Assembly (NCBI GenBank): GCA_937924775.1
Contig: CALDUT010000001.1
Location: 620,001-684,000, forward strand
Reading direction: 5' to 3'
DNA: 64,000 nt
From: an uncultured Gemmata sp.
GTDB lineage: Bacteria; Planctomycetota; Planctomycetia; Gemmatales; Gemmataceae
Shown here: positions 10,706 through 16,179 of the stretch, one piece after another
Layout: the number at the start of each line of letters is the position of its first letter
Numbering within the stretch: the stretch's first letter is position 1
Program-made: the position numbers and the translations under genes
The notes under the pieces: generated by a model
What the model saw: the letters and a program-made list of their open reading frames with translations, nothing else
The model's database searches: none
Told to the model about the DNA's origin: nothing

Positions 10706-11074
10706 TCAATCGCGGCCGGGGGTGCCCCCGGGGTTGGCCACCGTCGGATCCGCCGGCGGTGGCGGTTCGGCTCCCAGGGGGGGAGTTCCTTGACCGCGGG
10801 CGATATACGCGGCCCGCTGAGCGGCGTATTCTGCCGCTGTCAGCTGATCGAGGGAATCCTCGGGCGCGGCCCGGCATGCGGAACAACCGCCCCGTGCGGC
10901 CAGTTCGGCCCGGAAAATCTGCTTCAAAAACGGAATGCACCAGCCGCAGCCGGTTCCCGCCCCGCCGCACAGCGACAGTTGGCTGGGCACTTGGGGCGAA
11001 TGCAGCCGCACCCAATTCACCAGTTTCCGCCGCGTGACATGGAAACAGTAACAGATTTTGTCATCCAAGTTCAT
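10706..11074 (-). CDS. BFD-like [2Fe-2S]-binding protein
   Basis: 122-residue small protein. The N-terminal half has four cysteines in the bacterioferritin-associated ferredoxin (BFD-like) pattern: CYC near residues 8-10, then CGWC after the glycine-rich LCGGAGTG. BFD-like domains bind a [2Fe-2S] cluster and act as electron donors or regulators in iron storage or assimilation. The C-terminal half is Ala/Pro-rich, with a second CSAC pair, and looks disordered. I chose the ATG at 11074 (MNLDDKICYC); a TTG start nine bases upstream is possible. It is convergent with mfd, leaving only 15 bases between the stops. No ferritin gene is in view. Confidence 0.75.
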   Translation of the reverse strand: MNLDDKICYCFHVTRRKLVNWVRLHSPQVPSQLSLCGGAGTGCGWCIPFLKQIFRAELAARGGCSACRAAPEDSLDQLTAAEYAAQRAAYIARGQGTPPLGAEPPPPADPTVANPGGTPGRD

Positions 11075-11636
11075 GATGCACAATCCGAATCACGGGGATG
11101 GCGGAAACCAGCACTTCTATTATCCCGCGCTGAGCCTCTATTGTGCAATGGGAGAGGCGAACGGAGGAATCGCTCGGTCGTCCTGATGCGGGTTGGGGCC
11201 CGGGGGGCAACTGCTCGAATGGTTCACCCGCCGGCGCCGACAGACTGGGTCGGCACACTGTGGAAATCACCGCAATGCGGAAAGGTCACGGCCTGATCAA
11301 GAGAGGGTTTGTAGTCGGGAAATCGACAAAACGCTGAAGTCACTGGAACGCGAAAAGATCGGGGCCCTGCTGGCGGAGCCCGTCGACCGGCTTATGGTTC
11401 TCATCAAATTTTCACAATTTGACCACGCGTGGACCAGCTCTGATAGGGGGCCATCCCTTTGCCCCCCCTAGATCCTTTGCCAGCACCCGACCGGTGGGGT
11501 GGAAGGTTCTCAAGAAGAAGCTGTTGCGTTGTTTGGCAACAACGTCATGCTTGGCAAGCACTCGACCGGGGGTGGAAGGCTTTCAAATACCAGGTGTAGG
11601 CCCCTCGGTTCCCGGTTCTTCGTTGAATCGTTGTGA
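11075..11636. other. Non-coding spacer with an imperfect repeat
   Basis: About 560 bases between the upstream end of the BFD-like gene and the stop of the methyltransferase gene. I see no ORF with coding character in either strand. The right half (11476-11589) holds two imperfect copies of a 40-base unit and a small GTTG...CAAC hairpin between them. Confidence 0.5.
11476..11589. repeat. Imperfect direct repeat, two copies about 74 bases apart
   Basis: Copies at about 11476-11515 and 11550-11589 share AGCACYCGACCGG, then a G-run, then TGGAAGG and YTCAA. I estimate roughly 80 percent identity by eye. Between them lies GTTGCGTTGTTTGGCAACAAC, which can fold into a small hairpin. The repeats are not in a recognisable gene. 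Confidence 0.45.
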
Positions 11637-12515
11637 TCACTTGACCAGCCAATAATGGAGGGTATACTCGGCTCCGTCCTGACCTTGGACCGTCACCGTC
11701 TTGTCCGGTTTCCAGTCGCCGAGTTTGAAGCGGTGCGAAACGATCCGCGTGCCGGGTTTGAGCAGTTTCTGCAGCACCGGGCGCATCCGTTCGCCCAAAT
11801 CGTCGCCAATATAGATGAGTACCACCGTGGCTTCGGCGCAGATGGCCATGTCTTTCTCATTGAGAATGTCGCCTTGTTTGACAACGATTTTGTCGGCAAC
11901 ACCGGCCTCTTTGGCCCGCTGTTGGGCCCGGGCGACCATTTTCGGGTCGATGTCGATCCCGATGCCTTTCTTGGCCCCAAATTCCGTGACCGGGCGAATG
12001 AGCATAACGCCATCGCCGCAGCCGGGATCGAAAACGATGTCGTCTTTGCTGACTTTGGCAAGTTTGGCCATTTCGTCCACAATGTCGTCAGGTGTTGGAA
12101 CCCAGCGGACCACGATTTTGTCGTTCTTTTTATCTTCCACCGTCAGATCGACCTTCACCGCGTCGCCGGCCTTGACGGTCAGTTCGCGGGTCCGCGTGAT
12201 TTTGGTATAGTTGTTGGGCTGAATCAGAGCTTCGATGGTGAATTTGTGATCTTGGCCAGCTTCCAGGGCCGGGGTGGTGAAAACACGGATTTCGCCTTTC
12301 CCTTTGACCGTTTCGCCATTGACCTTGACGGCCGTTTCCTTGTATCCCTTGGCCGGTACGCGAATGGTAATGGTCGCCGATTTTTTCTCGATCTGAGGGG
12401 GGGCCGAGGACTCCCGCGGTTGTTGCGCCGCCTGCGTGGTCGACGGCGGCAGTGGTTCGCAAGCCAGCCCGATCAGGAGGCAAGCCAGTGTCACCATTCC
12501 TCCAAACGTTCGCAT
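11637..12515 (-). CDS. Lipoprotein-like TIGR03000 / SAM methyltransferase fusion
   Basis: 292 residues. The N-terminus is a lipoprotein signal with lipobox GLAC and Cys19. Residues about 47-122 match the planctomycete TIGR03000 type (a short beta domain with AVKVNGETVKGKGEIRVFTT). Residues about 130-292 are a class I SAM-dependent methyltransferase fold with motif I DPGCGDG at 163-169 and an acidic GIDIDP strand end. ATG 12515 is preferred because it gives a normal signal peptide. The gene starts 14 bases after the stop of thrC and is probably co-transcribed with it. A lipid-anchored methyltransferase is odd, since SAM is cytoplasmic; either the domain is a non-enzymatic binder or the topology is unusual. 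Substrate unknown. Confidence 0.75.
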   Translation of the reverse strand: MRTFGGMVTLACLLIGLACEPLPPSTTQAAQQPRESSAPPQIEKKSATITIRVPAKGYKETAVKVNGETVKGKGEIRVFTTPALEAGQDHKFTIEALIQPNNYTKITRTRELTVKAGDAVKVDLTVEDKKNDKIVVRWVPTPDDIVDEMAKLAKVSKDDIVFDPGCGDGVMLIRPVTEFGAKKGIGIDIDPKMVARAQQRAKEAGVADKIVVKQGDILNEKDMAICAEATVVLIYIGDDLGERMRPVLQKLLKPGTRIVSHRFKLGDWKPDKTVTVQGQDGAEYTLHYWLVK

Positions 12516-12529
12516 GATGCACGATCCTT

Positions 12530-13756
12530 TCAGTGAAACGACGCGATCGCGGACCAATCGATCCGGTCTTTGTCGAGTGTAGGCAATTCGCCCGGCATGG
12601 CTTCCAGATATTTGGGTGCAGCTGCCGTATTGAAAACAACAATCCGCTCATCGGGTTGCACGTCGCCGCGGTGGATCAACTGTTCGAGAACGTCCAGACA
12701 CACGGCGGTTTCTGGGCAGATATTGATGCCCTCCGCCGCACTGGCCCGCTGCATCCATGCCGCGATGCGGTCTTCGCGTCCGACCACGGCTTGCCCACCG
12801 CTGGCCCGAATCGCGTCGAGCATCAGGAAATCGCCCACGGCCACCGGCACGCGTAAGCCGCTAGCGACAGTGCAGGCGTTGGGGAACAGCTCGGCGAAGC
12901 GTTCGCCTCTTTCATAAGCGCGCACGATTGGGGCGCAGCCTTCCGGTTGGCAGGCGATCAAACGGGGGAATTTCGGCTGCCGCAACCAGCCGAGGGCCGC
13001 CAGTTCCTGAAAGGCCTTCCACATGCCGATAAGCCCGGTGCCGCCACCGGTGGGGTAGAAAATGACATCCGGGAGGACGCCATCCATCTGTTCGGCGATT
13101 TCCAGCCCCATCGTCTTTTTGCCTTCGAGGCGGTAGGGTTCTTTGAGCGTAGAGAGATCGAACCAGCCCATCCGGTCGACCCCCGCTCGGACGATCTGGC
13201 CACAGTCGTTGATCAGGCCGTTGACGCGGAAGGCCTTCGCACCGTACAACCGGGCTTCGAACTGATTCACCAGCGGGGTATCGTGCGGCATGAAGACGAA
13301 ACACTCGATCCCGGCCCGGGCGGCATAGGCTGCGGCCGCTCCGCCGGCGTTGCCCGCCGTGGGGAGGGCTACCCGCTTCACCCCCAGCCACTTCGCCATG
13401 CTGATGGCGGCCGTCATACCGCGGCTTTTGAAGCTCCCGGTCGGCAGTTGCGATTCGTCTTTGATGAAAAGCTGCGATAAGCCCAACTGCCGGCCCAGGC
13501 GGGGGCCGGGCAAAAGGGGCGTGAACCCCTCGCCCAGCGTGACCGGTTCTTGATCTTGCGGCAGGGGTAGGAGTTCCCGATAGCGCCACAGGGTGGGGGG
13601 CCGCCGGGCGATGTCGGCCCAGGCGACCGCGGCTTTCACCCGTTGCAGGTCGTAGCGAACCCAGATGGGCCGGCCATTGTACAGGTTCACTAATTGCCCA
13701 AATGGCAGCACCGTGCCGTCGATGGACGCCTCCAGATGCGAAACGAAGTGATTCAT
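12530..13756 (-). CDS. thrC: Threonine synthase
   Basis: 408-residue PLP-dependent enzyme of fold type II that converts O-phosphohomoserine to threonine. The Schiff-base lysine is Lys110 in PTGSFKSRG, the phosphate-binding loop is PTGGGTG, and the ALPTAGNAGGAAAAYAARAG stretch binds the cofactor ring. The N-terminal GEGFTPLL motif is characteristic of threonine synthases. Length agrees with the class with a short N-terminal region. It is the first gene of a two-gene minus-strand unit with the TIGR03000/methyltransferase lipoprotein. No other threonine genes are nearby. A related PLP lyase such as cysteate synthase is a less likely alternative. Confidence 0.9.
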   Translation of the reverse strand: MNHFVSHLEASIDGTVLPFGQLVNLYNGRPIWVRYDLQRVKAAVAWADIARRPPTLWRYRELLPLPQDQEPVTLGEGFTPLLPGPRLGRQLGLSQLFIKDESQLPTGSFKSRGMTAAISMAKWLGVKRVALPTAGNAGGAAAAYAARAGIECFVFMPHDTPLVNQFEARLYGAKAFRVNGLINDCGQIVRAGVDRMGWFDLSTLKEPYRLEGKKTMGLEIAEQMDGVLPDVIFYPTGGGTGLIGMWKAFQELAALGWLRQPKFPRLIACQPEGCAPIVRAYERGERFAELFPNACTVASGLRVPVAVGDFLMLDAIRASGGQAVVGREDRIAAWMQRASAAEGINICPETAVCLDVLEQLIHRGDVQPDERIVVFNTAAAPKYLEAMPGELPTLDKDRIDWSAIASFH

Positions 13757-13923: not shown

Positions 13924-15978
13924 TCACGGCGTCACAGCCCAGACGGTCGCGGTGGTGTCGGGGGAACCGGTGACCAGCCACTGCCCGTCGGGGCTGAAGG
14001 TCATGGCCATCGGCGTACCACCGGTGGTTGTGAAGGTTTGTTTCAACGTCGTTGCTGGCCAATCGAACAGCAAAATCTTCGCAGGATTGTTGGGCATAAA
14101 GGCCGATTGGCACGCCACCGCGAATTTCTTGCCATCGGGGCTGAAGACAGGGGCTAGCCCCACGCTATTCCGGTTCAAATCGAGGCTTTTCGTCACTTTG
14201 GCCGTGGTCAGATCATAGATCACCAAACCGCCTTGAGGAGTCGAAACCAAGGCCGACTGATTATCCGGCGCCGCGGTGACAAACGGATTGGAAAACCCCG
14301 ATTTATCCGTGAATTCCCCTTTCGCCTGGCCGGTTGCGGCCTCCCAGGTGGTGATGAGGAAACGATTGTCTTTCTCATTCATGCCCCCGGAAAGCTCTTT
14401 CGCGGCAACCTTGCGCCCCGCGGTGACGAGGAACCGGCCATTGGGGGTCAGATCCGCACTGACCACGTTGTAGTTGGGCAATTCCAGGGAGGCATAACGT
14501 TTCCCGGTTGCAACATCCCACACCTGAACCCGCGCGGGCGTTTGTTTGGGATCGAAACTCCATGCGGCGATGACCACTTTCTGACCATCGGCCGTGAATT
14601 TCGCGGTGGCGTTGGTGTTAAACGGCGTGGGCAACACATATTCCTGCAAGCCGGTGGTAAGATCGTAGACCGCGAAGCCACCGCTATCGCGCATCAGCGC
14701 AAATTTCAGGTTGGGCGCGAAAAGTACAGCGTCCATGGGACCAGTGAAGCCGAAGTTGGGCTGCTGCAGTTTCACTTCGCCCACCGGTCGACCGGTTTTC
14801 AGTTCCCACTTTTTCAAACCGTCTTCCGCGGAGGTGATGATGTGCTGATTATCCGCGGTGACAGCGACACCACGAATCGGCCCGGCGTGCCCACCTTGGG
14901 GGCTGAGCAACTTCCCAGAGGGAATTTCCCAGACGTACACCACAATGCCTTTCATCGCGTACGCGAGGGCTTTGTCGGTGGAAAGGGCTTGTACGCGGCA
15001 ACCCGACAAGTTGGGCACGGGGGATTCGGTCGTCGAGAGGCGGGAACCGTCGGCGGTTTTCCAGCGTTGTACCGTGCCATCTTCACCGCTGGCGACCAAC
15101 ACGCGGCCATCAGGGCTGAAATCGAGGAATCGCCCCATGCGGGAACGGCCCAGCAGTTGTTGTTTCACCTGCCCGGTTTTGGGGTCCACCAATTCGATGA
15201 CGCCATTGGCGGCGGAAACCGCGGCCAGCGACCCATCAGGGTGGAAGGCGACCGCCACCGGGGAGAAACCTTCCACCGGCACTTTGCACAATTCCTTCCC
15301 CGTGGTCGCCTCCCAGAAGTGAACGAATCGGTTAGGATTGGTGGCGGTGTCCGGCGGCATCATCGCGTCAGGATCAAAGTACGAACCCCAAGTCGCCACG
15401 ATCTGACCATCGCCGGAGATGACCGCATTGACAAACTGATTCTGCGGCACCGTGATTTTGCGAATCTCCTTGTCATTCTCCACATCCCAGATGAGAACAG
15501 TCAGTTTTTCATTGTTTCCCACATTGTTGGCACTGCCAACGGCCAGCCGCTGGCCGTTAGCCGACAAGGTGGCACCGAGTTCAAAGTTGGGAACTGATCG
15601 TTGAATTTTGACCAGTGCTTTGCCAGTTTGGGTATTCCAGACGGTGATCGTATCGAACGCCAATTGTAACGCGCGCTGGCCATTCGCGGAGAAGGCTCGC
15701 GGAGTACCCAAGAACTGACCGGGTACCTGGCCTAGGGTTTCCCCCGTCGTTGGGTTGAGGCGGAGCAAGCCACGTTCGCCCCGAACATAGAGGGATTTTC
15801 CATCCGGGGTCAGAATGGGCTGGGCAAAGTTGGTCATGCGAAAGCGGGCGGTCCCCAGCCGGGCCTGGGCCCCCGCGGGCAACGGATCGCCGGACGAATC
15901 CGTATCCGCGGCCCATCCCGCGAGAGCGGAGCACCCGATCAGCCAGGCCACCGAATAGTACCAACGACATGCAGTCAC
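13924..15978 (-). CDS. Secreted WD40-repeat protein
   Basis: 684-residue protein with an N-terminal signal peptide (WYYSVAWLIGCSALAGWAA, likely cleaved near residue 24) followed by repeated beta-propeller blades. Blades show the pattern FSPDG.....G.D..V..W, for example DFSPDGRVLVASGEDGTVQRW and TFSPDGQWLVTGSPDTTATVW (written with gaps in the protein at the middle and C-terminus). I count about ten or more blades, enough for one or two propellers. Start set at GTG 15978, with CGGAG nine bases upstream; the frame extends further but without a signal peptide. Such secreted propellers are abundant in planctomycetes and act as protein-binding scaffolds. Divergently transcribed from the isomerase-like gene at 16180. 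Confidence 0.8.
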   Translation of the reverse strand: MTACRWYYSVAWLIGCSALAGWAADTDSSGDPLPAGAQARLGTARFRMTNFAQPILTPDGKSLYVRGERGLLRLNPTTGETLGQVPGQFLGTPRAFSANGQRALQLAFDTITVWNTQTGKALVKIQRSVPNFELGATLSANGQRLAVGSANNVGNNEKLTVLIWDVENDKEIRKITVPQNQFVNAVISGDGQIVATWGSYFDPDAMMPPDTATNPNRFVHFWEATTGKELCKVPVEGFSPVAVAFHPDGSLAAVSAANGVIELVDPKTGQVKQQLLGRSRMGRFLDFSPDGRVLVASGEDGTVQRWKTADGSRLSTTESPVPNLSGCRVQALSTDKALAYAMKGIVVYVWEIPSGKLLSPQGGHAGPIRGVAVTADNQHIITSAEDGLKKWELKTGRPVGEVKLQQPNFGFTGPMDAVLFAPNLKFALMRDSGGFAVYDLTTGLQEYVLPTPFNTNATAKFTADGQKVVIAAWSFDPKQTPARVQVWDVATGKRYASLELPNYNVVSADLTPNGRFLVTAGRKVAAKELSGGMNEKDNRFLITTWEAATGQAKGEFTDKSGFSNPFVTAAPDNQSALVSTPQGGLVIYDLTTAKVTKSLDLNRNSVGLAPVFSPDGKKFAVACQSAFMPNNPAKILLFDWPATTLKQTFTTTGGTPMAMTFSPDGQWLVTGSPDTTATVWAVTP

Positions 15979-16179
15979 GGAAGTCGCTCCGAGAAAAGAC
16001 GGGAAAAGGTCGTAGTCTGAAGGAGAGGTTACCCGCTGAGAGGGCCGTTGTCCATCAGCTCCAAGAAACCCGCAAGCCACCGCTTGCAAGCCGCTGGTGC
16101 GGCTCATAAAGTCTGCGTTGAATCGTCGCGGTTGGCAGGGGCCGACTGCACTCCGTTCCCTCTTCCAGAAGGATCACTC

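Follow-up and report, generated by a model that had tools for sequence, protein, structure and literature searches.

A predicted Sec-exported methyltransferase of the aKMT type fused to a TIGR03000 domain in Gemmata and its relatives

Introduction

Can a SAM-dependent methyltransferase work outside the bacterial cytoplasm? The question is raised by a gene in a 64,000-nucleotide stretch of DNA from an uncultured Gemmata sp. (assembly GCA_937924775.1, contig CALDUT010000001.1, positions 620,001 to 684,000), which we refer to as the window. To our knowledge, SAM-dependent methylation in bacteria is regarded as cytoplasmic, and we know of no exported source of SAM or of periplasmic SAM. The initial annotation described the product as a lipoprotein in which a TIGR03000 domain is fused to a SAM methyltransferase, and pointed out that such an enzyme would need exported SAM unless its domain were a repurposed ligand-binder. 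From the analysis presented here we lean towards a periplasmic, probably protein-lysine, methyltransferase that would be exported by Sec and act on envelope or secreted proteins. The features of the locus, with the basis of each assignment, are as follows.

11637..12515, minus strand: TIGR03000-methyltransferase fusion gene, 292 aa (ORF list, profile matches, PDB sequence search)
11640..12110, minus strand: aKMT-like class I methyltransferase domain, residues about 136-292 (profile, PDB sequence and structure matches)
12009..12029, minus strand: SAM motif I, DPGCGDG, residues 163-169 (domain alignment)
12144..12380, minus strand: TIGR03000 domain, residues 46-124, predicted beta sandwich (profile match, model)
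12423..12515, minus strand: predicted Sec-type signal peptide, residues 1 to about 31, candidate TQA/QAA sites at about 28-30 (our own rule, family comparison)
12525..12530, minus strand: AAAGGA, probable ribosome-binding site, overlapping the thrC stop codon (sequence)
12530..13756, minus strand: threonine synthase (thrC-type), immediate upstream neighbour (NF006050, 538.4 bits against a cut-off of 303; synteny)

Results

Domains and predicted structure

Both halves of the fusion are recognized by curated profiles. The TIGR03000 match scores 77.7 bits against the NCBIfam cut-off of 43.1, and Pfam PF13847 (Methyltransf_31) scores 46.5 bits against 27, which places the C-terminal domain among the class I SAM-dependent methyltransferases. 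The equivalog profile for the archaeal protein-lysine methyltransferase aKMT, NF041081, scores 119.9 bits over residues 149-286, short of its cut-off of 200, and a profile search found no protein above that cut-off in the same genome. Residues D163, G165, G167 and D168, which we take to be the glycine-rich motif I, and D188, presumably the acidic residue after strand 2, are all present and conserved.

A PDB sequence search ranks 5bxy (E 1.5e-36) first, followed by the aKMT entries 5fa8 (1.3e-30) and 5jwj (2.1e-29). An AlphaFold2 model of the fusion protein (mean pLDDT 88.5) superimposes on 5fad, an aKMT-SAH complex, with Z 26.4 and an rmsd of 1.5 over 157 aligned residues, on 5fa8, aKMT with SAM, with Z 25.6, and on 5bxy, an SAH complex from Salinibacter ruber, with Z 25.6, an rmsd of 1.1 and 44% identity over 148 residues. 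Next come the aKMT NMR model 5jwj (Z 19.1) and, at 18.6, the top entry that is neither aKMT nor 5bxy. Prediction supports the pairing that the initial annotation pointed to, export with a SAM-binding domain, whose fold is complete. The likeness to aKMT (aKMT4; 5fa8, 5fad, 5jwj) extends over nearly the full methyltransferase domain, with 34-36% structural identity and Z 25.6-26.4 for 5fa8 and 5fad; the aKMT chain, however, has only about 160 residues, whereas the window protein additionally carries a signal and TIGR03000, and falls under the equivalog cut-off. The S. ruber "RNA methyltransferase" 5bxy, the closest solved structure by sequence, was also solved with SAH, but its chain lacks TIGR03000 and its function is putative. 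aKMT is a crenarchaeal broad-specificity protein lysine methyltransferase; its reported substrates are chromatin proteins, MCM and others inside the cell (PMC4639711).

Modelled alone, the TIGR03000 domain forms an all-beta sandwich (pLDDT 87.1). We could not assign its fold to a known protein: the best structural match was modest (6hif_Y, from the hydrazine dehydrogenase complex of Kuenenia; Z 9.0, rmsd 2.2, 74 aligned), a Foldseek search with the isolated domain gave nothing at E<=1e-3, and PDB sequence relatives were absent, the best (E 0.16) being a designed protein. TIGR03000 is named in no paper of the literature searched.

Constraint on the methyltransferase core

In a comparison with the 90%-identical sister L001, a single pair, dN/dS was 0.020 for the methyltransferase domain, 0.086 for TIGR03000 and 0.283 for the signal plus linker. 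Among 129 aligned domain rows (some of them repeats), D/E163 is kept in 124, G165 in 125, G167 in 126, D168 in 125 and D/E188 in 127; outside these motifs Y235 is kept in 126, G255 and R257 in all 129, H261 in 125, W268 in 123 and W289 in 125. The methyltransferase core is strongly constrained.

These figures bear on the suggestion, made in the initial annotation, that the domain is a repurposed ligand-binder, namely that the protein is exported but non-catalytic and the domain is kept outside the cytoplasm to bind or sense SAM, SAH or some other nucleoside. Such a role would fit the want of any periplasmic SAM known to us, and Ala takes the place of the final Gly of motif I in 35 of the 129 rows. 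Of these, 34 carry the fused label, and most of the clade to which the window gene belongs is among them (DPGCGDA in 17 rows). The window gene itself, however, retains the Gly, and Y235, R257, H261 and W268 are conserved like motif I in a domain under the low dN/dS given above. With the whole aKMT-type core constrained, beyond motif I, we disfavour a non-catalytic binder and consider it rather unlikely.

Predicted export across the family

The fusion protein has a predicted Sec signal by a rule of our own making (not SignalP), with a positive n-region, a hydrophobic core and a small-residue cleavage site. The rule asks for an 11-residue hydrophobic core, a preceding Lys/Arg and a small-residue site, and accepts any ATG start, or GTG/TTG if well-preceded. 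We collected 188 distinct family members; five are cut at the N-terminus, leaving 183 (90 fused, 93 unfused) for scoring. Signals were predicted in 90/90 fused and 84/93 unfused members, 174/183 in all. For comparison, a similar any-start rule scored 60/213 background ORFs positive (12/50 from the window and 48/163 from the loci); these ORFs are mechanical picks rather than curated genes. Predicted export is the rule across a large family, not the oddity of one gene.

The nine negatives are a mixed group. L194 and L195 clearly have no signal, and L190 and L228 are long forms of other kinds. In L199, L204, L207 and L214 our rule missed a hydrophobic stretch at the N-terminus, and L023 is a frameshift piece. 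Twice a signal-less paralogue occurs alongside exported ones in one genome (L194 with L183; L195 with L187, L191 and L200); this speaks for the signal being under selection rather than incidental to the fold. The N-termini carry positive charge followed by a short hydrophobic core, the uncharged run having a median of 17, often with AxA-Q type sites after it; this combination predicts either cleavage or an N-in/C-out topology. The twin-arginine pattern RRx[FLIVM] is absent from the window protein and occurs in six of 129 family N-termini (some repeats), so export looks Sec-like. Tat export with pre-bound SAM was set aside, since the window protein has no Tat motif.

The N-terminal segment might instead be an uncleaved anchor, or be skipped, leaving the methyltransferase in the cytoplasm. 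A parallel exists in FAM173A/B (ANT-KMT, ATPSc-KMT), aKMT-like enzymes with a putative N-terminal TMD according to the portion of PMC9006661 consulted; they differ in being eukaryotic and mitochondrial, and their likeness to the window protein rests on that description. Translation from within the gene would have the same outcome, and the initial annotation had named a downstream start used in vivo as the observation that would speak against export. After codon 8 the next in-frame starts of the window gene are GTG codons 120 and 126, which could in principle begin a short form. We surveyed the 31 codons before the methyltransferase domain in 91 fused ORFs (one of 92, lacking the anchor motif, was left out). 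An ATG, GTG or TTG lies there in 74/91, and one with a 4-base Shine-Dalgarno match in 8/91; five of these eight have the offset -14 in common, though they belong to different subgroups and two of the five are near-identical. Candidates for an internal cytoplasmic start are thus few, none is conserved across the fused ORFs, and little speaks for translation past the signal. Since the charge pattern, short core and frequent AxA-Q sites also count against a cytoplasmic enzyme, as does the position of TIGR03000 between signal and enzyme in the fused members, we regard that arrangement as quite improbable.

The lipoprotein part of the initial annotation fared less well than the predicted signal. 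No strict lipobox ([LVI][ASTVI][GAS]C) stands at the end of the hydrophobic core; the sequence IGLAC, with Gly at -3, is a loose fit only. Sister proteins read IGVACAQEKK or VGVACGQEKK at the same Cys (Cys19), which is replaced in LGLATAQEKK and VGVSAAQEKK. As the sisters show an Ala-X-Ala signal-peptidase-I shape, Cys19 is best read as part of such a site. The window protein has an insert, PLPPSTTQAAQQ, after Cys19, as has its 90% sister at that place, so its own cleavage site is uncertain. An exported lipoprotein, otherwise working as in the reading we prefer, could appeal to the loose fit, to the recurrence of the Cys in several sisters and to true lipoboxes in L188 and L205, but given the Gly at -3, a strict lipobox in just 4/174 signal-bearing members (best-ranked start scored) and the loss of the Cys in close sisters that keep the AxA site, we reject the lipoprotein identity and rate it a shade less probable still than a cytoplasmic enzyme. 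What stands of the original description is the predicted export and the fusion itself, the latter established by the profiles and by DPGCGDG at 163-169.

Distribution and origin of the fusion

A search of genome contigs returned 27 loci: 10 fused planctomycete genes, one frameshifted fused gene and 16 genes without TIGR03000, the last from one Gemmataceae MAG, cyanobacteria, acidobacteria, Aminicenantes, deltaproteobacteria and Binatia. Within the order, 99 of 102 genomes gave a match at E<=1e-3, the weak rows being generic methyltransferases. By hand count 64/102, among them all 19 genomes of the genus, have a row at E<=1e-37 that covers both domains, starting at query position 62 or earlier and ending at 278 or later. 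The fusion gene is conserved far beyond chance. In a sample of 294 genomes of the phylum, including that of the window, rows better than 1e-20 came only from the window's own genome and from G268, G246 and G234, and none of the latter three reach the TIGR03000 part.

The window's genome holds three clear members, namely the window fusion, a second fusion (C7) and an unfused one (C2). TIGR03000 itself gives eight matches there (seven over the cut-off) in seven proteins. Of these seven, five have a signal-like N-terminus by eye, and five show no methyltransferase domain in the frames inspected, unlike the window protein.

In a quick tree of 128 rows a main fused clade was recovered but a single origin was not. 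The clade has 86 rows (SH-aLRT 96), among them every one of the 78 that a simple pattern labels as fused; seven of the remaining eight are fused by profile and the eighth is a cut piece. L126 and L128, fused by profile, fall outside it, so the fusion may have been gained, or lost, more than once.

Several variant architectures were seen. L023 (6001-6833), from an acidobacterial MAG, is a TIGR03000-methyltransferase fusion split by a frameshift, attributable to gene transfer, sequencing error or misbinning. Three Gemmatales loci (L254 3071-4846, L255 3926-5554, L257 1931-3691) encode one TIGR03000-like and two consecutive methyltransferase domains in frames of 543-592 codons, and G032:C45 has two methyltransferase matches within a single open frame of 1083 codons. 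C-terminal extensions of about 70-120 residues past the methyltransferase occur in L011-L014, L016, L203 and L204 (cyanobacterial, Aminicenantes and alphaproteobacterial). Two Cys/Gly-rich TIGR03000 proteins in G000 (C1:303908 and C20:22219-22827; L028, L029) start with MYSIVMLTAL and have no classical signal peptide.

The thrC neighbour

The ATG of the fusion gene is at 12515, with AAAGGA nine bases upstream; because this overlaps the threonine synthase stop, coupling to thrC translation is plausible in this genome. The initial annotation had found that coupling unexplained. We surveyed 1.5-kb flanks at 16 same-genus loci (L036-L051, three cut short by contig ends) and 14 from other genera (L052-L065). 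The adjacency was seen in 8/16 of the former but in 0/14 of the latter, several of which have a tandem second fusion gene in place of thrC. An operon logic was rejected, the linkage being confined to the genus and thus probably incidental. Around L001-L010, where ORF picking was partly misled by antisense ORFs, we saw no convincing neighbours beyond thrC, tandem paralogues, and the WD40 gene and mfd of the closest relative. In the window a gene for a WD40/beta-propeller protein of 727 aa (13924-16107, minus strand) lies upstream of thrC, and one also adjoins the closest relative L001. Between mfd and the fusion gene lies that of a small BFD-like [2Fe-2S] protein (10706-11083, minus strand; 125 aa; PF04324, 38.3 bits).

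SAM supply and permease neighbours

The window's genome has one match for SAM synthetase (PF02773) and one for SAH hydrolase (PF05221), and no export signal was seen at the likely starts of either, so that exported forms of these enzymes were dismissed as a local source. Some relatives of the methyltransferase have a transporter gene beside them. Of five plasmid records with a relative we inspected four; an annotated amino acid permease directly adjoins the methyltransferase gene in three (Agrobacterium, Chelatococcus and Leptolyngbya boryana), and the fourth, Gloeothece, has no adjoining permease. The permease is an APC transporter of LAT type (Pfam AA_permease_2; TIGR00911 201 bits, below the cut-off of 701.8), with matches at about 1e-46 to LAT1 and BasC-like chains.

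Counting same-strand permeases no more than 2.5 kb away at E<=1e-30, we found 22 of the 188 distinct members linked, 15/98 unfused and 7/90 fused, in 18 genomes or plasmid records from four phyla: five Acidobacteriota, two cyanobacteria, two alphaproteobacterial plasmids, one planctomycete outside the order and eight Gemmatales (G001, G004, G034, G040, G049, G093, G097, G098). In six of these last (G001, G034, G040, G049, G097, G098) the genes next to a permease include a TIGR03000-like fusion, as judged by our own profile and not the TIGR03000 model. Two linked methyltransferases, L204 and L207, were not scored as exported by our rule.

Because some loci were chosen for their permease, these rates are biased. 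Less biased figures come from Acidobacteriota, with linkage in 6 of 32 rows examined (65 were listed) and in five of the 27 genomes that gave a match (of 149), L219, whose 28%-identical permease is on the opposite strand, being left out of the count; from the contig search, with 1 of 27 loci linked (L015); and from Gemmatales permease loci, where a methyltransferase was within view in 3 of 20. A close permease (E<=1e-49) occurs in 29 of 102 Gemmatales genomes by hand count, with the methyltransferase adjoining in eight, for which a rough estimate from gene numbers gives a chance expectation of fewer than one. Within 1.5-kb flanks no permease was found at 30 window-type and nearest fused loci (L036-L065) or at 26 generic methyltransferase loci (L154-L179). 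The window gene has no permease neighbour, and its genus has just distant permeases, the best in its own genome at E 1.1e-34.

Discussion

On the reading we favour, the fusion protein would leave the cytoplasm via Sec, most likely being cut by signal peptidase I. The aKMT-like domain would then bind SAM outside the cytoplasm and methylate envelope or secreted proteins. The most likely target is lysine, by analogy with aKMT, since the NF041081 score lies under the cut-off. The TIGR03000 beta sandwich probably positions the enzyme on a partner or on the envelope. Lysine-methylated secreted and outer-membrane proteins have been reported in a review of extracellular protein modification (PMC10450907), the consulted parts of which describe no exported methyltransferase of this kind. 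Phrase searches of the literature likewise found no periplasmic or exported methyltransferase of this kind, and no paper joining aKMT, FAM173 and a signal peptide; the matches listed for "secreted methyltransferase" included clubroot-protist, M. tuberculosis and host-chromatin papers.

The SAM permeases of yeast are members of the APC superfamily, and mitochondria swap SAM for SAH. The LAT-type permease that adjoins some relatives might export SAM or exchange it for SAH. We tentatively propose, as a possibility that we ourselves doubt more than we credit, that in at least four phyla a Sec-exported aKMT-like family methylates proteins outside the cytoplasm, that such a permease feeds part of it, and that the Gemmatales fused TIGR03000 to the enzyme and multiplied the genes. 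Given a conserved, multi-copy family with predicted export and a recurring permease neighbour, an extracytoplasmic SAM pool becomes a testable proposal. The enzyme is of a known kind, here with predicted export and a fusion to TIGR03000, a domain that thereby gains a context with a probable enzyme.
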